This document shows positions 9,530 through 32,804 of a stretch of DNA of 35,808 bases, in pieces. Made by a program: the position numbers and the translations under genes. Positions within the stretch are counted from its first letter, which is position 1. Each line of letters begins with the position of its first letter. Under the pieces are notes generated by a model, which saw only the letters and a list, made by a program, of their open reading frames with translations, searched no databases and was not told the origin of the DNA. This stretch comes from a virus. Where the stretch lies: positions 1 through 35,808 of IMG/VR virus record IMGVR_UViG_3300037504_000204; one strand, given 5' to 3'.

Positions 9530-10513
9530 TTAAGACTCGCTCCACTTGCTGCTGCTCGCATCCCGGAGCGTAATCTTGCAGATGTTCGTTGCGTCATAGA
9601 AGCTTTCAAAGTTGATGGTGAAGGGGATCCGCTCCCGAGTGGAGACCACCGGCAGCTCGCCTATCAGCTTGCAAACCGGTATGTCCACGGTGATCGTGTA
9701 GTAATACCCGGCCTCGATTGTCGTTTCGTGCGTAATAACCACCGTCAACTGCACGTCGGTGTTGTCCTTGATAGCATCCCGGAGCGCATCGGAAGCGGAG
9801 CTCCACTCCAATTCAAAGTTGCCCGAGACCAGGAACTCCTGTGGCTTGACCTCGTCACGGTACCGATCCCCCGAGAGCCGGTATCCCGAATCCTCGGATA
9901 GAAAGTTCTGAATTACGATCTGACCGCTGATCGCGTAGGCCACATCTGAGGTGTCAACCTGCAGCTTAGCGAAATCCCCGACGAAGGGGTCTTTCGTGCT
10001 CAGCGTATTCCCGGCAAGCGACTGGTCATCGGTTTCTTTTTCTGCCAACAGATCGATCGTCGCCTGCATGATCGAGCCCTTCTGCAGGTTGAGCGTCAGC
10101 TGATTGATGATACAGCCCGGATACTCGCATACCGTCCCGCCGCGGTCGATGCGGAAATTCAGGCTTGGAAGGGCCGTACCCGCAGCCGCCGGCGTGAAAT
10201 CGTGGTCGTACGCCGTGGTCGCGTCCACCTGAGCTGCAGCCGCTTCTGCGCCCATGAGCGCATACACGATCTGAGGGAAGCTGTCGGCGTTCACGTAGAA
10301 CGGTATCGACCCGGCTGCGCCCTTGCTACCCTGATATGCCGTCCTCCTGGCCCGGCTACCGAACACATGTTCCGCCCGCAGCGGCTCGGTATCCTCCCGC
10401 ATGGTTTCGCCGGGAATCATCTCCAGCGCGGTGTCCGGAGCGTCCCCGTTCGCCCAGGACGTTTCCAACGCGTACTCGCATGATGTCCCGGCGCCTACGT
10501 ACAGATCACTCAT
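9530..10513 (-). CDS. Major tail tube protein
   Basis: The 327-residue protein begins MSDLYVGAGTSCEYALETSW and has the features of long phage tail tube proteins: an early loop with PGETMREDTEPLRAEHVF, a strand pair around SIPFYVNADSFPQIVYALMG, and a Cys-containing GGTVCEYPGCIINQLTLNLQ segment. The C-terminal half carries a second beta domain (FELEWSSASDALRDAIKDNT; TIEAGYYYTITVDIPVCK). It sits just before the chaperones and after the tail terminator module, the standard place. The start overlaps the preceding gene by 8 nt. Confidence in the role is high from order plus pattern. Confidence 0.85.
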   Translation of the reverse strand: MSDLYVGAGTSCEYALETSWANGDAPDTALEMIPGETMREDTEPLRAEHVFGSRARRTAYQGSKGAAGSIPFYVNADSFPQIVYALMGAEAAAAQVDATTAYDHDFTPAAAGTALPSLNFRIDRGGTVCEYPGCIINQLTLNLQKGSIMQATIDLLAEKETDDQSLAGNTLSTKDPFVGDFAKLQVDTSDVAYAISGQIVIQNFLSEDSGYRLSGDRYRDEVKPQEFLVSGNFELEWSSASDALRDAIKDNTDVQLTVVITHETTIEAGYYYTITVDIPVCKLIGELPVVSTRERIPFTINFESFYDATNICKITLRDASSSKWSES

Positions 10514-11134: not shown

Positions 11135-11565
11135 CTGAGCTGCCTCCGGAACTGTCTGACGAAATGACCTCGGAACATCGTCGAGATCTTACGCCATTGC
11201 TCCTGCAGAAACGGTTTCAGAAACGGTCTCGGTCCACCATGCCGCGTACCGCGATACTCCCAGTACGACGGATAATCAAACCCACGAGGGCTCTTCACGT
11301 GGTTTTTGACATAGATGACGCCAGTGGTTTTCTCGGTTGCCACCACATCCCCGGCGATCCCGCGCGCGAGCCTCCCCGTGGTGCCCCTGCCAGGATCAGA
11401 CACCAGATTGTCAGGCCGTGGGCCTTTCAAATACAAGGGCGGTATCTGCTTTGCGCCCCATTCCGCCGTATCGAGCATCGCGCGACTGACTATATCAGGG
11501 AACCGCCGTTTCATGTTGCGAAGCATCGCATCCACTTCCCTTGTATCGAATCGGACTTCAGACAT
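11131..11565 (-). CDS. HK97 gp10-like head-tail joining protein
   Basis: The 144-residue protein begins MSEVRFDTREVDAMLRNMKR, with an amphipathic helix and then GAKQIPPLYLKGPRP and GRGTTGRLARGIAGDVV. It ends with the family's typical aromatic/Pro segment, PSYWEYRGTRHGGPRPFLKP, and a basic helix. This is the pattern of the HK97 gp10 family of minor structural proteins, which act between connector and tail. Start overlaps the previous gene by 8 nt. Confidence 0.8.
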   Translation of the reverse strand: MSEVRFDTREVDAMLRNMKRRFPDIVSRAMLDTAEWGAKQIPPLYLKGPRPDNLVSDPGRGTTGRLARGIAGDVVATEKTTGVIYVKNHVKSPRGFDYPSYWEYRGTRHGGPRPFLKPFLQEQWRKISTMFRGHFVRQFRRQLR

Positions 11566-12394
11566 AACGCCTCCGGTACAGGTCGAACACTCTCAGCGCA
11601 GTCTTCGGCAGATCGCTTGTCTCGATCGTCATGGTACCGTCCGCGATGGTCCTGCTGACAATTCCCAGCCGGTTGTTCTTGTACGAATCATAAAGCCACT
11701 TGATCGCTTCCAGCGCGGCCTCTTTGATGTCCCCTGGAATAGTGCTGAATCCGGCCGTATAATCGACGAACACGTTACGATGCCCTGACGGGAACCCTCC
11801 CTCGTAATAGAGCACACCATCGTCCTCGTACAACTCGAATCCGTTCAGGTGCTGACTCGGTATATGCAGATAAGCGTATTCGTCAAGGCAATACAGACCC
11901 CAGGCCGGCAGGAGGTTGTCGCTCGCGTAGCTGTCGTAGTTGCTGTCTACTACCTCAGCGGACCATCCGCTCAGTGCGTTGATAGCCGTCTCCAGGGCTG
12001 ACAGTGTTGTGTAATCGGCGAATGCCAGCGTGCTGCTACTCCCGTCTTTCGTGACCGTCACAGCCGTCGTGCTCACGCTCACTGTGGCGTTGGTTACCGT
12101 CCCGGTGTTCTTCACCTTCACGGCACAGTATTTTCCGTAAGCCACCCGCGAGACAGCGCTCACAGGGAAGTTGTCCAGATAGATGTACTGCTTCCCGCCG
12201 TCGTACCTGTCAGCGTGGCTTGTGCTCGGGAGGACCCGGCCCGTATACTCCTTGATAAATCGGTGAACCGAATTACAGGCCAGGTTGAGCCGTTCGGCTT
12301 CATTGTCGTCGTACCAATCGATACCGAGCGCCGTCTTCGCATCCCTGTTGTTGTCCCCGATCAGGCTGTATGTGTCGATGAATGAAATCGCCAT
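11558..12394 (-). CDS. Head-tail connector (gp6-like) with inserted beta domain
   Basis: The N-terminal 85 residues match gp6-type connectors: ALGIDWYDDNEAERLNLACN, then VHRFIKEYTGRVLPS and a YIYLDNFPVSAVSRVAYG strand. The C-terminus has the matching end, VDYTAGFSTIPGDIKEAALE then AIKWLYDSYKNNRLGIVSRT. Between about residues 90 and 150 is an extra Thr/Val/Ser-rich beta segment (NTGTVTNATVSVSTTAVTV, LSALETAINALSGW), also seen grafted onto phage adaptors. The family's usual length is nearer 100-200 residues, so 278 reflects that insert. The ATG is next to a hairpin with only a weak SD. Confidence 0.8.
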   Translation of the reverse strand: MAISFIDTYSLIGDNNRDAKTALGIDWYDDNEAERLNLACNSVHRFIKEYTGRVLPSTSHADRYDGGKQYIYLDNFPVSAVSRVAYGKYCAVKVKNTGTVTNATVSVSTTAVTVTKDGSSSTLAFADYTTLSALETAINALSGWSAEVVDSNYDSYASDNLLPAWGLYCLDEYAYLHIPSQHLNGFELYEDDGVLYYEGGFPSGHRNVFVDYTAGFSTIPGDIKEAALEAIKWLYDSYKNNRLGIVSRTIADGTMTIETSDLPKTALRVFDLYRRRYV

Positions 12395-12412
12395 ATCACA
12401 CCCGTAATATAT

Positions 12413-12446
12413 GGGGCGAGGGAAAGGAGGTCAGAACCCTCACCCC
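12413..12446 (-). promoter_or_regulatory. Intergenic RNA hairpin with anti-Shine-Dalgarno loop
   Basis: On the minus-strand RNA the stem GGGGTGAGGG pairs with CCCTCGCCCC (10 bp, one U-G wobble; the plus strand would have a C-A mismatch). The 14-nt loop is TTCTGACCTCCTTT, which contains ACCTCCTTT, the sequence of the 16S rRNA 3' end. The hairpin is 18 nt upstream of the connector start, whose own SD is weak. It has no T-run, so it is not a classical terminator. A near-identical loop occurs at 26114-26147 on an unrelated stem. Confidence 0.7.
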
Positions 12447-23918: not shown

Positions 23919-24054
23919 TCGCTCCCTCCTTTCTCTTTTTGCACTCATCACACATATACCAGTACGTCTCCGTCCTTCTCCCGTCAGCGTGTACCACCTC
24001 CCTGACTTTTACCTGCTCGGTGGCCTCAGCCTTGCGGCATACGTGGCAGGTCAT
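23887..24054 (-). CDS. Small zinc-ribbon protein (55 aa)
   Basis: The ATG at 24054 overlaps the previous stop as ATGA. The sequence has CxxC pairs, MTCHVCRKAEATEQ and YWYMCDECKKRKEG, about 30 residues apart, enough for one zinc ribbon. Its end overlaps the next gene by 32 nt. It may bind nucleic acid or act as an adapter; the pairing of cysteines is the only support. Confidence 0.6.
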   Translation of the reverse strand: MTCHVCRKAEATEQVKVREVVHADGRRTETYWYMCDECKKRKEGANGDTEGLVSQ

Positions 24055-24248
24055 ATCACCACCCACCGCATCAGCACTATCGCCCCGACAGCCAATGCCA
24101 GTATACCTGCTGCTACCCCGTGTCCGTTCTTCTTCGCCCCACGCCACGCCGCGAATACCGTACCCGAAAGCATCAGCAGTAACGCAGTGTGCGGTATGAC
24201 GATGTAGCGTATAAGCTCCCTGATAGCGTACAGTTCTCCGATAGTCAT
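24051..24248 (-). CDS. Small two-helix membrane protein (65 aa)
   Basis: ATGA junctions on both sides support this frame. The product begins MTIGELYAIRELIRYIVIPH and has two hydrophobic segments (residues about 15-34 and 43-62) around a basic loop (WRGAKKNGHG). That is a holin-like topology, and it lies three genes before the amidase in transcription order, so an early or second holin is possible. Confidence 0.65.
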   Translation of the reverse strand: MTIGELYAIRELIRYIVIPHTALLLMLSGTVFAAWRGAKKNGHGVAAGILALAVGAIVLMRWVVI

Positions 24249-25090: not shown

Positions 25091-25885
25091 CTACGGTTCC
25101 CCCTCGCCCGGAACATCCCAGCGGTCTTTTTCGGGGTCCGATTGCGGTCCGATCTGAGCCAGCTCCGGGTGCTTTTTCACCAGCTGCCGGTACGCATCGG
25201 GGTCCTCGACACGCAACCGATCGGCCATGGCACGTTGTTGTTCGAGGGCTGTGCCGTTGGGGTTTGAAAGGCGCGAAAGAACCTCCGCAGGACGAGCCGT
25301 AGGCGAGTCCGAAGGAGGAGCGCCTTGGTTCTCCGGTTCCTTTACTTCCTTTCCTTTACTTCCTTTACTTCCTTTACTTCCTTTGGGTTCGGAAAGTGGT
25401 GTTTCAGAATCTTTTTGGGCGCTTTCCGATTCGGAATGTGCGCTTTCAGAATCTAAAATATCGTCTACAGAATCTTGAATTAATTGAGTTTGCGACCATG
25501 ATGGAATCGTCGGGTGGACGAGCATGATTTCGGGGCAAAAATGGAGCTCTTTTCGCTTCAAAGAGGCTTCGATATACCGTTTCTGGACTCCTGAAGATGT
25601 CAGAATGTGCTGATTCCGAATCTTAAAGATTCTGAAAAGGCCCTTTTCGATTCCGAAAGTGATGATTCCGATTCCTTTTTCCGGCGAAATATGTACCTCA
25701 TTAAAGAAAAGAAGCTGCGTTTCGTCGTCCCAGATGAGGTAATATCCCTCCCGGTAAATCATGGCCCACAGCTCAATGACGAACCCGATACCTTCCAGGC
25801 CGAACTTCGCACGGATCAGTTTCATTTTCCGATCCCAGTTTGTGTCCACACTGAAATAGCTCAGACCTCGTTTTACACTCGCCAC
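25091..25885 (-). CDS. Lin1244/DUF4373-type replication protein
   Basis: The N-terminal 115 residues match the DUF4373 / Lin1244-Lin1753 N-terminal domain: FSVDTNWDRKMKLIRAKFGL, IELWAMIYREGYYLIWDDET, then ILTSSGVQKRYIEASLKRKE. Such domains are found on phage replication initiators and DnaD-like proteins. Residues about 140-185 are low-complexity Ser/Glu and KGSKGSKGSKG repeats encoded by 9-bp DNA repeats; the rest is acidic and disordered. The GTG start has GGAGGGG before it. The gene contains two clusters of GATTC-type repeats that may form a replication origin. Confidence 0.78.
   Translation of the reverse strand: MASVKRGLSYFSVDTNWDRKMKLIRAKFGLEGIGFVIELWAMIYREGYYLIWDDETQLLFFNEVHISPEKGIGIITFGIEKGLFRIFKIRNQHILTSSGVQKRYIEASLKRKELHFCPEIMLVHPTIPSWSQTQLIQDSVDDILDSESAHSESESAQKDSETPLSEPKGSKGSKGSKGKEVKEPENQGAPPSDSPTARPAEVLSRLSNPNGTALEQQRAMADRLRVEDPDAYRQLVKKHPELAQIGPQSDPEKDRWDVPGEGEP
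25353..25379. repeat. Tandem 9-bp repeat CCTTTACTT x3 (coding KGS/SKG)
   Basis: Three contiguous copies of CCTTTACTT on the plus strand, with a further copy at 25339-25347 after a 5-bp gap. They encode the Ser-Lys-Gly run in the replication protein. The array is short and inside a coding linker, so it probably varies in length by slippage. Confidence 0.85.
25402..25675. repeat. Clusters of GATTC-type repeats inside the replication gene
   Basis: GATTCYGAA-like sequences occur as two groups: 25402-25474 (TTTCAGAATC twice, a TTCCGA-T-TCGGAA palindrome at 25424-25436, and CAGAATC) and 25612-25675 (GATTCCGAATC, GATTCTGAA, GATTCCGAAA, GATTCCGATTCC). They straddle different parts of the same gene, as in lambda O where origin iterons lie inside the initiator gene. 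Confidence 0.45.
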
Positions 25886-25889
25886 AGGC

Positions 25890-26087
25890 TCACCCCTCCA
25901 TCTTGAACATGTGTGGCTGTTTCTCCGGCAGCGTCGGCGCTATTTCCTCGAGTATCGTTATCTCGGCCAGCCTGGCAGAGATCTCGTCCTCCGTCTTCTG
26001 TTGGTATTTGACGCACTTGTCCTGCAGTTCGGTGATCTCGGTTCGCCTGCGAAAAATCATTTCTTCAACGTCATCCTTGTAAGGCAT
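25890..26087 (-). CDS. Hypothetical coiled-coil protein (65 aa)
   Basis: ATG at 26087 follows GAGGAGATAGC. The protein is mostly helical (EITELQDKCVKYQQKTEDEI, then ARLAEITILEEIAPTLPEKQ). The upstream hairpin at 26114-26147 has an anti-SD loop that could pair with this gene's SD. Function unknown. Confidence 0.62.
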   Translation of the reverse strand: MPYKDDVEEMIFRRRTEITELQDKCVKYQQKTEDEISARLAEITILEEIAPTLPEKQPHMFKMEG

Positions 26088-26113
26088 ATGCTATCTCCTC
26101 GCAGATTTAATTC

Positions 26114-26147
26114 CCGCCCGGGGAAAGGAGGTTGGAACCCCGGGCGG
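26114..26147 (-). promoter_or_regulatory. Intergenic RNA hairpin with anti-Shine-Dalgarno loop
   Basis: Perfect 10-bp stem CCGCCCGGGG / CCCCGGGCGG with the 14-nt loop TTCCAACCTCCTTT on the minus strand. The loop differs from that at 12413-12446 at two positions while the stems are unrelated. CCTCC in the loop could pair with the SD GAGGAG of the following gene, masking it, or mimic the 16S 3' end. Confidence 0.7.
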
Positions 26148-26988: not shown

Positions 26989-27189
26989 TCATACGACGTA
27001 CATCCCGTTCTGATTCATATGGGTCCGAATCATCAGAGCACAGCCAGAAACCCGTCCATACTCGGCGGTAAACACCTCAGTCCACAGGGCGCAGCGGTGC
27101 TCGTAACACTCGTCAAAATGCGCGACCGTCACGTTATTCGCCCTCTCCGTGTTCACCCGAAACGGGCACAGCTTCTTTTTTTTGCTCAT
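26989..27189 (-). CDS. Small cysteine-rich zinc-binding protein (66 aa)
   Basis: MSKKKKLCPFRVNTERANNV then FDECYEHRCALWTEVFTAE and GCALMI: C8, C28, C33 and C50 fit one zinc site, a layout common in small phage proteins of unknown role. The ATG overlaps the SbcDC-fusion stop as ATGA. Confidence 0.65.
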   Translation of the reverse strand: MSKKKKLCPFRVNTERANNVTVAHFDECYEHRCALWTEVFTAEYGRVSGCALMIRTHMNQNGMYVV

Positions 27190-30100
27190 GCCGTCACCTC
27201 CTCCCTCGCACCGGAGCTCAGGGCCCGCATCTCAATACGCTGACCGATCACCTCCTGCGCCTCGGCAGAATGCGTGATCACAATCGTATGCCAGCGGCCA
27301 GCTTCGACGTGTGCCCGTTCGAGCATCCGGAAATAGTGCTGCCGGGCCTCCGGGTCCAGGGCGCCGTCGGCCTCGTCCTGGAACACGGTACGGAACTGTG
27401 TCCCGGTTTTCCGTGCACGAATGATACCGAAGGCATCGTAAATCGCACGCTTCACCCACACGCTCTCGCCACCGGACAGCGTCTCAAGCAGCTGTTCCTC
27501 GCCTGTCTCAGAGTCGAGGATCCAGATTGAGAAATCCTCGATCTGCTTCGTTTTCGATCCGGACCCACCGATACGCGTGGTACGGAATTCCACCTGGAAC
27601 CGGCTGCCGTAGGCGCTTTCAAGGATGCTGTTCGCGACTTCCGCGATCCCCGGGCCCATGGCGTCCAGCTCGAGCGCCTGGATGCCGTCCGGACCGCACG
27701 CCCGCTGCAGGTACACCCAATCGGCCTTGTCCTGCTCTCTACCCGCAGCTGTCGCCCGCAGGTCCGATATCTGCGAGAGCTCGGCCTCAAAATGGTCGAT
27801 TCTGTCCTTGCAGGCCGCGATCTCCGTGCGGATCCGCGTGAGATCCTTGTCCTTCTCGTGGTACTTCGCCCGGGTTTCTTCGAGCTCGGCGCCCACCCGC
27901 CGGAACTCGGATTCCGCCTGGACGTTTATCTTTGACCCGAGAGCCTGGATCTCTTTCTCTTTCTCGCGGATTATGCTACGGATCTGTTCCAGGCGCTTGT
28001 TGATCTCACCCATACGCACCTGAGCCTCGTCAGCTTTCCGGATGGTTTCATTCAGCTGGTCAGGGTTGATGGCTCTTATCTGGTCCTGGATCTCGAGTAG
28101 GATGCGGGTATCGAAACCGGGCAAGTCCGGTTCGGGCGGGTACTGCAGGGCTCCCTTGCGGGCATCGAGCTCCTGCACCTGCTTTTTGAGCTCTGCAAGC
28201 TCCTTGTCGGCCTCGAAAATGTGCTGTTGTAATTCGTTCAGTTCCGCCTGCTTTTCCGTCCGTTTCTGCTCGAAAACAGCCTTCTTTTCAGCAGGCCATT
28301 TCTGGCCACAGGTCGGGCATTCCTCGGTCACCGGCTCCCGGAGCCCGGTGTCCAGCTGCTCGGCCTTTGTTTTAATGACAGCTCGCGAACTCTCAACGCT
28401 CGAAATCTTCGCAGACAGCTCGGACGTCTCTGCCGTGATCTCTCGCTCAGCATCCGCCACAGCCTGTTTCTCACGGTTGTACTCAGCGTTGATCCGTTCC
28501 CGCTCCTCGTAAACCCGGGCCCGTTCTGCATTGAGCTCTCCCTCCTGCTTCTTCAGGTCGTGGTACCGCTGGCGCTCGTGGTTCGCGCCCACCAGGTTTG
28601 ACGCGGCTGATTCGTAGACAGAATGATCAGCCTGCAACCGGTATCGCTCGTCGCACAGTTCGTCTATCTGCTTACCCAGGTCGTTAATCTTCTCCAGGAC
28701 CCGGTCGCTCTCTTCAACCTTCTTCTGCAGATCCTCGTACTGCTCCTTCAGGGTTTTGCCTTTTTCCCCGAATGATTCCAGCTCGGCCTGTGCGTTGTAC
28801 TCGTCCTCTTCGATGTCGGCCAGGTGATGTCGCGCCTCGGCCAGTTCAGCTTGAAGCTCTTCTTCCCGCTCCAGCTTCGCGCGGATCCCGACCAGCTCTT
28901 GCTCAATGGCATCCGCCTGCGCCTTCGCGATCTCTGCATGCGTCTGCAGGTAATCCAGCCCGCCGAGCTCACGGAATAACGCTTTCTTCTCGCCTTTGGT
29001 CGCCTCGCTCAGGTCCGGCAGGTTCTTCGGCTGTTTCTGACTGACGAACGCACTCCGGAGGAACAGCGGCAGGCTGCCGAACAGCCGGGCAACCTCGGCC
29101 TCGTATGGATCCTTCCGGCCGTTGGTCTCGCCCACGGGCTGCCAGGTATCTCCGTTACCTCTGAGGTAAAGGAAATACTCCACGGACCCGCTCTTGTTCG
29201 CACCGTCGATCTGCATGAACGCTCGGTACTCAGTGACGGTATTCTCGTCGATGAAATACAGATCTCGGTAGGAGTCGCGCAGGCAGAAATGATCCTGCAG
29301 TTTGCCCGAGCGCGTGAGCATCTGTGGATACGGGTGCATGTTCTCGATCAACGTGGTCTTGCCGGCGCCGTTCTGCCCGACCAGCGCTATCAGCCCCTGG
29401 TCAAACGTGTTCAGGTCAACCGTCACCTCGTCGAGCCCAAGCCCCTTCTTGATGCCGATTGCACCACGGAGAACAAGCTGCTGGATCCGGATATGCAGAC
29501 CAGTTGGAGCTTCTCCCTGCTCCTGGGCCCGGAGCTCCAGCTCGTCAGATTTTTCCAGTATGCTATCCGTCACCTGTTCACAGGAGAGTTCAGCGTAGAT
29601 GCCGACCTTGTCCCGGAGCCGCAAAGCCTCGGTGATCCGCTCTGAGCGCACAGTTTCTGTAGATATGTTTACAATCTCGACGCGGGAACCTGGGCCAGCG
29701 CCGGCGTTCTGGAGGCCTGCAAGGATCTCATCAGAATCGATACCGGCCCTCTGCTCCTTTGCAGCCCTGATCTGAAGCCAGACATCGTATCCGTTGATAT
29801 CGGAATCAGATGTGACCAGGTCAATCCAGCCGTCCTTATGAACGTCCGCCTCCACCACAATCTTCTTCCGCGGCAGGAAGGGATACGGGACGGTGTCGAT
29901 GGTCAGATCGAAGCCGTCGGCAGCAGGAGACTCCGCGATGTTGAAATGCTTCTGATCACGTTCCCCCCAGTCCACTGGAAACGCGCTGCCGGCATAGCAG
30001 GCAGGAAGATTCCCGACCTGCTGCCCCATGTGAATATGCCCGAGCGCGTAATAATCCGCCCCGACCAGCGCCAGGTCGTCAGCACCGATCTGGATACCTC

Positions 30101-30704
30101 CCGGAGGCAGCACTTGGCTCTCACTGATGCTTGCGCCGGCCACGGTGAGGTGCCCGACGAACAGGCAGGGCAGATCCGCGTGCTCTTCCCTTATGGCGCC
30201 CATGCCCAAAAGCATCCCACGCATACCGTCGACAATCGCCCTGTTGCTCTCCTCTTTGCCAAGCTGCTGGCCGGCCAGGAACCAGCTCTTTTGCGGCTCA
30301 GGCATCCCGAATACCAGCAGCTTACTGTGTTCGGTCCTGCCCTCGGGCTGCACGTCGAAGTTGTCCACGAAATACGGGATCATCGGCATCAGCAGCGTGA
30401 ACCGGTGGCGCGCATGGATCTCTTGGAATATCGAATACGACCCGAGCACATCATGAGTCGGGGTCCCAGTGACCGCGACAACCGGCGCCGCATCCATGAG
30501 CCGTTGTATAGCCCGCACCAGATACGGTAGGCCGGAGCTGTCCGTGTTGTTCACGGGCCGATCCCATAAATCGCCGGCGATCACGATCACATCCGGTGTA
30601 TCCTTCTCGGCTGTCTCTGCGACAGTTTCCAGAGCCCGCAGCGCCCGTTCCTGATTCTCACGTGAATAATGCAGATCGGAAAAATGGAGCAGTCGAATAC
30701 TCAT
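27186..30704 (-). CDS. Single-chain SbcD-SbcC (Mre11-Rad50) fusion nuclease
   Basis: The 1172-residue chain starts at ATG 30704 after GGGAGGACAAC. Residues 1-250 are an SbcD/Mre11 phosphoesterase: D10 and H12 (LHFSDLHYS), D45/D48 (IAGDLWDRP), G80-D85 (GTPTHD in place of GNHD), H185 (FVGHLTVAG), H223/H225 (ALGHIHMGQ). Residues about 400 onward are SbcC/Rad50: Walker A GQNGAGKT at 443-450, a coiled coil with a zinc hook CPTCG at C796/C799, the LSGGESV signature near 1075, Walker B QDEAD at 1110-1111, and H1145 in ITHSAEA. Together they would process DNA ends. Normally two genes; here one frame with no stop and a linker near 260-400. Position after the HNH and annealing-like genes supports a recombination role. 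Confidence 0.93.
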   Translation of the reverse strand: MSIRLLHFSDLHYSRENQERALRALETVAETAEKDTPDVIVIAGDLWDRPVNNTDSSGLPYLVRAIQRLMDAAPVVAVTGTPTHDVLGSYSIFQEIHARHRFTLLMPMIPYFVDNFDVQPEGRTEHSKLLVFGMPEPQKSWFLAGQQLGKEESNRAIVDGMRGMLLGMGAIREEHADLPCLFVGHLTVAGASISESQVLPPGGIQIGADDLALVGADYYALGHIHMGQQVGNLPACYAGSAFPVDWGERDQKHFNIAESPAADGFDLTIDTVPYPFLPRKKIVVEADVHKDGWIDLVTSDSDINGYDVWLQIRAAKEQRAGIDSDEILAGLQNAGAGPGSRVEIVNISTETVRSERITEALRLRDKVGIYAELSCEQVTDSILEKSDELELRAQEQGEAPTGLHIRIQQLVLRGAIGIKKGLGLDEVTVDLNTFDQGLIALVGQNGAGKTTLIENMHPYPQMLTRSGKLQDHFCLRDSYRDLYFIDENTVTEYRAFMQIDGANKSGSVEYFLYLRGNGDTWQPVGETNGRKDPYEAEVARLFGSLPLFLRSAFVSQKQPKNLPDLSEATKGEKKALFRELGGLDYLQTHAEIAKAQADAIEQELVGIRAKLEREEELQAELAEARHHLADIEEDEYNAQAELESFGEKGKTLKEQYEDLQKKVEESDRVLEKINDLGKQIDELCDERYRLQADHSVYESAASNLVGANHERQRYHDLKKQEGELNAERARVYEERERINAEYNREKQAVADAEREITAETSELSAKISSVESSRAVIKTKAEQLDTGLREPVTEECPTCGQKWPAEKKAVFEQKRTEKQAELNELQQHIFEADKELAELKKQVQELDARKGALQYPPEPDLPGFDTRILLEIQDQIRAINPDQLNETIRKADEAQVRMGEINKRLEQIRSIIREKEKEIQALGSKINVQAESEFRRVGAELEETRAKYHEKDKDLTRIRTEIAACKDRIDHFEAELSQISDLRATAAGREQDKADWVYLQRACGPDGIQALELDAMGPGIAEVANSILESAYGSRFQVEFRTTRIGGSGSKTKQIEDFSIWILDSETGEEQLLETLSGGESVWVKRAIYDAFGIIRARKTGTQFRTVFQDEADGALDPEARQHYFRMLERAHVEAGRWHTIVITHSAEAQEVIGQRIEMRALSSGAREEVTA

Positions 30705-31225
30705 GTTGTCCTCCCGACAGCGCCGATTTTTTGCCCCTTTGGATGGTGGATCGCCATATGGCAGATGCGGCACACTACGAGAAGATTGTCTTTGCTGTGA
30801 TTCGGACTATCACTCGTTCGCCCACGTCCATCTATATGGTGGACATCAAGCTTCCTGTTCCACCTACGGATCGCTTCAGCCTCAGTCATCCCGCAGAGCT
30901 GACACGATCCACTGGCATTGGCAATTATCTGCTGACGATCACCACCAAAACGGTATCGTTCACCGGCGCGATATTTTTGGATTCTCCGTCTATCCCTGTG
31001 GTACCTCTCAAGGATGCGGCCATAGCAACTCTTGCATAAGCCTCTGGCACTTACTGGTTTTGCGCCACAGAGTCGGCATTCCGTACATTTTCCCCACCAG
31101 CGGTTTTCTTTCATTCCGAGCCTTCGGCGCCTCCATCTGCTATAGCAGGTGTTACAGAGCCCCCGGCACCTGATCGGTTTCTCGCCGCAAGATGTGCACT
31201 TCATGCCGACCCATTTGACATTCAC
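30701..31225 (-). CDS. HNH endonuclease with two zinc ribbons
   Basis: GTG at 31225 overlaps the previous stop as GTGA. The 174-residue protein has two related four-cysteine ribbons (C10/C13 with C24/C27; C50/C53 with C64/C67; both carry RGLCxxCY) and a C-terminal HNH core: CQLCGMTEAEA, DVHHIDGRGRT with H129/H130, KDNLLVVCRICHMAIHH with N147 and H156/H160. Homing-like or structure-specific nuclease. It lies between the recombination protein and the SbcDC fusion with ATGA overlap to the latter, which argues that it is part of the operon rather than a random intruder. Confidence 0.85.
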   Translation of the reverse strand: MNVKWVGMKCTSCGEKPIRCRGLCNTCYSRWRRRRLGMKENRWWGKCTECRLCGAKPVSARGLCKSCYGRILERYHRDRRRIQKYRAGERYRFGGDRQQIIANASGSCQLCGMTEAEAIRRWNRKLDVHHIDGRGRTSDSPNHSKDNLLVVCRICHMAIHHPKGQKIGAVGRTT

Positions 31226-32320: not shown

Positions 32321-32578
32321 TCACCACTCGATTCCTTTTAGCTCATCAGCCTGTTTTTTCAGAAGCACCTCCTCCTTTCTGAGCTCGGCGATAATCCCCC
32401 TCTGTACCTCCGGGATTTCTGCCAGCCGTTCGGCATAACCCTGGAGAAAATCAGCCCGTGCCAGCAGTTCGTTCGCCACGATCTCTACCGTCGCGTACGC
32501 TTCGCGGGCAATATCTCTGCACCGCTCCAGGTCCTGCACAATTTCTTTCTGCACATCGATACCGAGCCCTCGTACCAT
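32321..32578 (-). CDS. Hypothetical helical protein (85 aa)
   Basis: ATG at 32578 follows AAAGGAGGTGGGCTGAC. Almost wholly helical (QKEIVQDLERCRDIAREAYA; LRKEEVLLKKQADELKGIEW). No family recognised; sits between an excisionase-like protein and the recombination gene. Confidence 0.65.
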   Translation of the reverse strand: MVRGLGIDVQKEIVQDLERCRDIAREAYATVEIVANELLARADFLQGYAERLAEIPEVQRGIIAELRKEEVLLKKQADELKGIEW

Positions 32579-32579
32579 G

Positions 32580-32804
32580 TCAGCCCACCTCCTTTCTCAG
32601 CGTGTACAGCCTTTCAGCTTGTGGCCGCCGGACCTTGTAGTCCCGGTGCCACCAGATCCAGAAGTCCTCGACACAGATGCGTATCACTTTCCCCTCGCGC
32701 TTATGCGGTAGCGGGTCCACGTCTCGTCCACACCAGTTGATAACGGTCTGCGTGGACACGCTCACCATGCCAGCAATCGTCGAAGGCTTTACCCAATCGT
32801 TCAC
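32580..32804 (-). CDS. Excisionase-like helix-turn-helix protein (74 aa)
   Basis: GTG at 32804 overlaps the previous stop as GTGA. The 74-residue product is MNDWVKPSTIAGMVSVSTQT followed by VINWCGRDVDPLPHKREGKV and ICVEDFWIWWHRD, which is the MerR-like/HTH_17 (excisionase family) pattern with a helix-turn-helix then a wing. In phages such proteins direct excision or act as early activators. It is the third gene of the leftward operon, opposite to the integrase, as expected for Xis. Confidence 0.72.
   Translation of the reverse strand: MNDWVKPSTIAGMVSVSTQTVINWCGRDVDPLPHKREGKVIRICVEDFWIWWHRDYKVRRPQAERLYTLRKEVG

Follow-up and report, generated by a model that had tools for sequence, protein, structure and literature searches.

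Two hairpins with a common loop

The DNA analyzed here, referred to as the window, is a 35,808-base virus record. The majority of its genes lie on the minus strand, and it encodes a block of capsid, connector and terminase genes, together with a region for replication and an integrase of the tyrosine type. One open reading frame, 27186-30773 on the minus strand, appears to be a fusion of an SbcD-like phosphoesterase (PF00149) and an SbcC-like ATPase (phrog_77) of the Mre11-Rad50 type. Two short intergenic gaps, 13.7 kb apart, each contain a single hairpin with an anti-Shine-Dalgarno (anti-SD) sequence in its loop, placed among the neighboring features as follows.

26114-26147, minus strand: anti-SD-loop hairpin copy 1; 10-bp stem, 14-nt loop TTCCAACCTCCTTT at 26137-26124; covariance model score 58.4 bits
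26105-26113, minus strand: A/T-rich spacer GAATTAAAT, directly 3' of copy 1
26095-26100, minus strand: SD GAGGAG of gene 25890-26087
25890-26087, minus strand: 65-aa gene downstream of copy 1, ATG at 26087, followed by the replication gene
25091-25885, minus strand: Lin1244_N replication-initiation-like gene; the homolog in the related contig L129 likewise lies downstream of its hairpin
12413-12446, minus strand: anti-SD-loop hairpin copy 2; 10-bp stem including one U-G pair, loop TTCTGACCTCCTTT at 12436-12423; covariance model score 55.4 bits
12405-12412, minus strand: A/T-only spacer ATATATTA, directly 3' of copy 2
12399-12403, minus strand: weak SD-like stretch GGGTG of gene 11558-12394
11558-12394, minus strand: head-tail connector gene downstream of copy 2, ATG at 12394 (phrog_442, PF05135)

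No family match was found for the 65-aa gene. Both hairpins had been proposed, at exactly these coordinates and ahead of gene starts, in an earlier sequence-only reading, and the minus-strand sequence agrees on both counts. Copy 1 (26147-26114) reads CCGCCCGGGG-TTCCAACCTCCTTT-CCCCGGGCGG and folds at -22.7 kcal/mol, with 0 of 200 shuffles folding as well; copy 2 (12446-12413) reads GGGGTGAGGG-TTCTGACCTCCTTT-CCCTCGCCCC and folds at -19.6 kcal/mol (2 of 200 shuffles). The ATG follows 26 nt downstream of copy 1 and 18 nt downstream of copy 2. Direct comparison confirms that the two loops, both exactly 14 nt, are equal at 12 of 14 bases, and both arms of the stem differ. A wobble had been claimed for both stems; it exists in copy 2, where the U-G pair becomes a C-A mismatch on the opposite strand (-19.6 kcal/mol sense versus -15.8 antisense), but not in copy 1, which is paired by Watson-Crick pairs throughout.

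For the motif ACCTCCTTT, 0.20 occurrences are expected in the window and three are observed; the one outside the two loops, at 32587-32595, is simply the backward reading of the SD that serves gene 32321-32578. We estimate the chance of such a pair in a window of this kind, that is, two 10-bp hairpins of equal loop length sharing 12 of 14 loop bases, at about 1e-5. The two-hairpin observation is more than chance, and an independent copy was later found in L129.

A third copy and covariation of the stem

A search of IMG/VR for a third copy asked for ACCTCCTTT in a loop closed by three G-C pairs and allowed any base at the five other loop positions. It returned 11 contigs, one of which possesses a 10-bp stem: L129:213-246, GGCCCCGGGG TTCCGACCTCCTTT CCCTGGGGCT, a third unrelated stem. 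Its free loop bases are TTCCG, those of the window being TTCTG and TTCCA, and an ATG lies 22 nt downstream, belonging to a short gene upstream of a Lin1244-type replication gene. L129 comes from a relative of the window virus (terminase 62% identical), and the Lin1244-type genes of the two are homologous (26%, E 3e-25). Each lies downstream of its hairpin, with one gene intervening in the window and two in L129. The sequence-only reading had named a lack of further copies in related genomes as grounds for rejecting it; L129 supplies such a copy.

Across the three copies, 10 of 10 pairs are kept, with both bases replaced in six of them and a single base in one. The covariation score is 0.90 versus 0.13-0.37 for slid pairings, as computed from three sequences with slid controls of the same relatedness. 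The loop is kept in 12-13 of its 14 bases on three unrelated stems, and its two variable bases change by transitions only (U/C and A/G, in three copies). This conservation in L129 of both the loop and the changed pairs supports the earlier proposal of selection on structure plus loop. Copy 2 has one G-U pair and L129 has two; in the antisense strand all three turn into A-C mismatches, and the hairpins bearing them fold 3.8-4.7 kcal/mol better in sense than in antisense. As these pairs form in the sense RNA only, the functional molecule is most likely the sense RNA. The hairpin has a covarying structure in the sense orientation, is placed in leaders, and recurs independently in a related virus, and we consider it very probably a real, conserved phage RNA element.

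A possible fourth copy is found in an AT-rich, unrelated phage (L236:10107-10145), where a perfect 10-bp stem, GAGAGGGTGG/CCACCCTCTC, encloses TTCTGACCTCCTTTCTTGT. Its loop is 19 nt, unlike the 14 nt of the three firm copies. Its start lies some 15 nt downstream of a sigma-70-like promoter sequence with a TG extension (TTGACT-17-TATACT), and an ATG is found 46 nt downstream of the hairpin. An IMG/VR-wide scan for GGTTCNNACCTCCTTT matched 112 contigs, and two of these, L129 and L236, have stems of at least 10 bp, versus 0.067 expected from the background frequency of 10-bp stems. Taken alone, L236 as a fourth copy is suggestive, with a chance of about 0.07 and its position in support. Under covariance model R1, built without L236, it reaches 29.4 bits (E 1.8e-4 over 1.0 Mb, the locus having been pre-fetched by motif). 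No further copy is present in the first 40 kb of the 47-kb record of this phage. Similar A/T-rich stretches are also found 3' of the L129 and L236 hairpins.

Distribution of the element

In reverse complement the loop reads AAAGGAGGTYRGAA, a classic ribosome binding site (RBS). Motif searches that omit the stem therefore return mainly ribosome sites, a pitfall illustrated by the IMG/VR matches to the loose motif GTTCNNACCTCCTTTC, which were rejected as mostly ordinary SDs read backwards. The two window hairpins themselves are not hidden SDs of antisense genes, as neither has a plus-strand start codon at SD distance.

A search for loops closed by C-G (CTTCYRACCTCCTTTG) found no stems of at least 6 bp, a pattern search of GTDB genome contigs gave 0 matches, and the element is absent from approximately 90 other terminase-relative loci in IMG/VR and GTDB genomes, many of which are fragments. 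No Rfam family matched at or above its gathering threshold in a relevant way, and the leader at 12413 has no DNA match among named phages. The covariance model found no convincing copy in about 300 Chloroflexota and 300 Pseudomonadota genomes. Its nine matches at E<=0.05, in eight of these ~600 bacterial genomes, were judged to be chance: that in L365 lies within a 466-codon open frame, that in L368 has a U-run, those in L369 and L370 are tRNA-like by eye, and the others have non-matching loops. The firm copies thus number three, in two related viruses, and the element is apparently a small, lineage-restricted family. Two of the sampled Pseudomonadota genomes carry a strong hairpin (L366:1501-1541 and L367:1501-1541, minus strand) with the same stem (CTGGCCGGGG...) and different loops, which is unrelated to the anti-SD hairpins.

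Comparison with known systems

Hairpin loops with anti-SD sequences are already known from some bacterial regulatory sRNAs. The C-rich hairpin loops of Staphylococcus RNAIII pair with SDs, as is proposed here for the phage loop, but RNAIII is a large trans-acting RNA and its loop sequence and genetic setting differ from those of the phage hairpins. The nearest design is that of the alphaproteobacterial alpha-r14/NfeR1 ("cuckoo") sRNAs, in which three hairpins present an identical, unpaired anti-SD motif, CCUCCUCCC, on very different stems, and for which mRNA silencing through the anti-SD motif has been demonstrated for NfeR1 (PMC10746234). By analogy, the phage hairpin, which likewise has its anti-SD in the loop of stems of differing sequence, may act in the same way. 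It is nevertheless not a member of alpha-r14: the latter are stand-alone trans sRNAs with three hairpins each, whereas the phage hairpins are single and lie in intergenic leaders, and the phage loop is UUCYRACCUCCUUU, with ACCUCCUUU, in place of CCUCCUCCC.

Repeated inverted repeats upstream of phage gene starts have also been described as ESAS in Cluster K mycobacteriophages, where they lie just upstream of translation starts and their function is unknown. ESAS have conserved 17-bp imperfect arms, a variable 4-13 bp spacer, and an adjoining 13-bp repeat, GGGATAGGAGCCC (PMC3203893). The element described here is the reverse, with a conserved anti-SD loop and variable arms: the arms are unrelated between copies, and GGGATAGGAGCCC is not seen beside the window hairpins.

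Possible functions of the loop

We tentatively propose, with a probability of roughly one in three, that the element is a leader hairpin with a trans base-pairing loop, whose likeliest targets are the purine-rich initiation regions (SDs) of other mRNAs. The 14-nt loop UUCYRACCUCCUUU would be held open by a strong stem, free in its sequence, with an A/U-rich spacer behind it, and would base-pair in trans, its likeliest partners being SDs on other mRNAs of the phage or the host. Such pairing would reduce translation of the target or link it to the hairpin-bearing mRNA, as with the anti-SD loops of alpha-r14 (NfeR1). We infer all three elements of this scheme, namely loop-SD pairing, action in trans, and an effect on translation. 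If correct, an anti-SD design in phage leaders would be a compact way to tune translation.

The loop is fixed over varying downstream SDs, suggesting that its partner is located elsewhere. A single partner, AAAGGAGGUUGGAA, could pair with all loop variants by means of G-U pairs, and the transition-only changes in three sequences hint at such a fixed partner. When the best RBS-loop duplexes were compared with those of loops with random first-five bases, no significant partner emerged by duplex energy among the RBSs of the window phage (P 0.74 and 0.42). In L129, the same search was nominally positive (P 0.04) for the RBS of L129:3543-3851 (plus strand), a gene encoding a small membrane protein. 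The window gene 24051-24248 (minus strand), also encoding a small membrane protein, is weakly similar to it (24%, E 6e-4) and its RBS ranks high. Both RBSs show good predicted pairing with the loop flanking one mismatch, making them candidate trans targets, as a lead only. A point against a trans-acting sRNA is that the hairpins lie within short intergenic gaps and do not form separate sRNA genes that end in a terminator.

The main alternative to trans RNA pairing, possible if less than probable, is a phage or host RNA-binding protein that would read the UUCYRACCUCCUUU loop and control translation or decay of the mRNA. Identity with the 16S tail would then be incidental, or would mimic the site of a 16S-tail-binding protein. 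A covarying stem with a fixed loop is typical of protein operators, the loop is exactly 14 nt in all three firm copies, and conservation extends outside the SD complement (UUC); indeed, SD pairing does not require the UUCYR half, yet this half is fixed, so that there is scope for a protein ligand. However, no protein can be named as a candidate, this reading would not account for the 9-nt match to ACCUCCUUU, and the loop of the doubtful fourth copy is 19 nt long.

Action in cis appears doubtful. Here the loop would form an H-type pseudoknot with the SD of the downstream gene; as a mimic of the 16S tail, it would lower translation of that gene until the pairing is opened. The SD of gene 25890-26087 could pair in this way (GAGGAG/CUCCUU), the spacer of ~9-13 nt would suit a pseudoknot, and the predicted duplexes reach -13.3 kcal/mol in L129 and -12.5 in L236, the latter through a 9-nt match, AAGAAAGGA, at 10156-10164. 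In the window, the corresponding value is only -4.3 kcal/mol for the connector gene 11558-12394, near the bottom of 54 listed ORFs (an automatic, approximate list; median -9.5), and -8.7, also weaker than the median, for gene 25890-26087. Moreover, the loop is fixed while the downstream SD is different in each copy. Masking of an SD, as suggested from the sequence alone, is therefore not favored in cis, as both downstream SDs are weaker than the median of the listed ORFs and pair poorly with the loops. Recruitment of the ribosome or competition with it, suggested in the same reading, is a further possible action.

Rather unlikely is a more general imitation of the 16S rRNA 3' tail by the leader hairpin, which would act on translation initiation itself, either pairing with SDs in phage or host mRNAs at large or binding a factor that normally holds the 16S tail. 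Equally improbable is an ordinary 5'-leader or intercistronic stabilizer, or weak terminator, with the loop as a quirk of the lineage. Plain, short-loop hairpins rich in GC do occur in the window phage, at gene starts or immediately ahead of them (14280-14256, 22423-22397, and 32274-32247, minus strand). The L129 virus, which extends into L173 (4.5 kb at 100% identity), has a UUCG hairpin without an anti-SD loop (L173:5956-5975, plus strand) before a short gene ahead of the connector gene, approximately where the window phage carries copy 2. Hairpin leaders thus look to be general in the lineage, with the anti-SD loop a special subset. A stabilizer leaves unexplained the retention of 12-13 of 14 loop bases on three unrelated stems, and a terminator is at odds with the lack of a following U-run: no T-run follows any of the three firm stems, and terminator scans, which cover loops of 3-8 only, were negative. 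Very improbable is a DNA element, either a palindromic binding site or a promoter (loop CTGACC as -35, A/T spacer as -10). The promoter reading stems from a CTGACC-17-TATATT call at copy 2 (12434-12406), but no promoter was called at the 26114 and L129 copies, and neither the conserved pairing of variable arms nor the sense-only G-U pairs would be explained by a DNA element.

Two further features of window hairpins may be recorded. The genes behind the plain GC hairpins have stronger SDs than those behind the two anti-SD hairpins. Directly upstream of the small terminase region, a 23-bp inverted repeat followed by a T-run (21563-21511, minus strand) forms a strong terminator-like structure.
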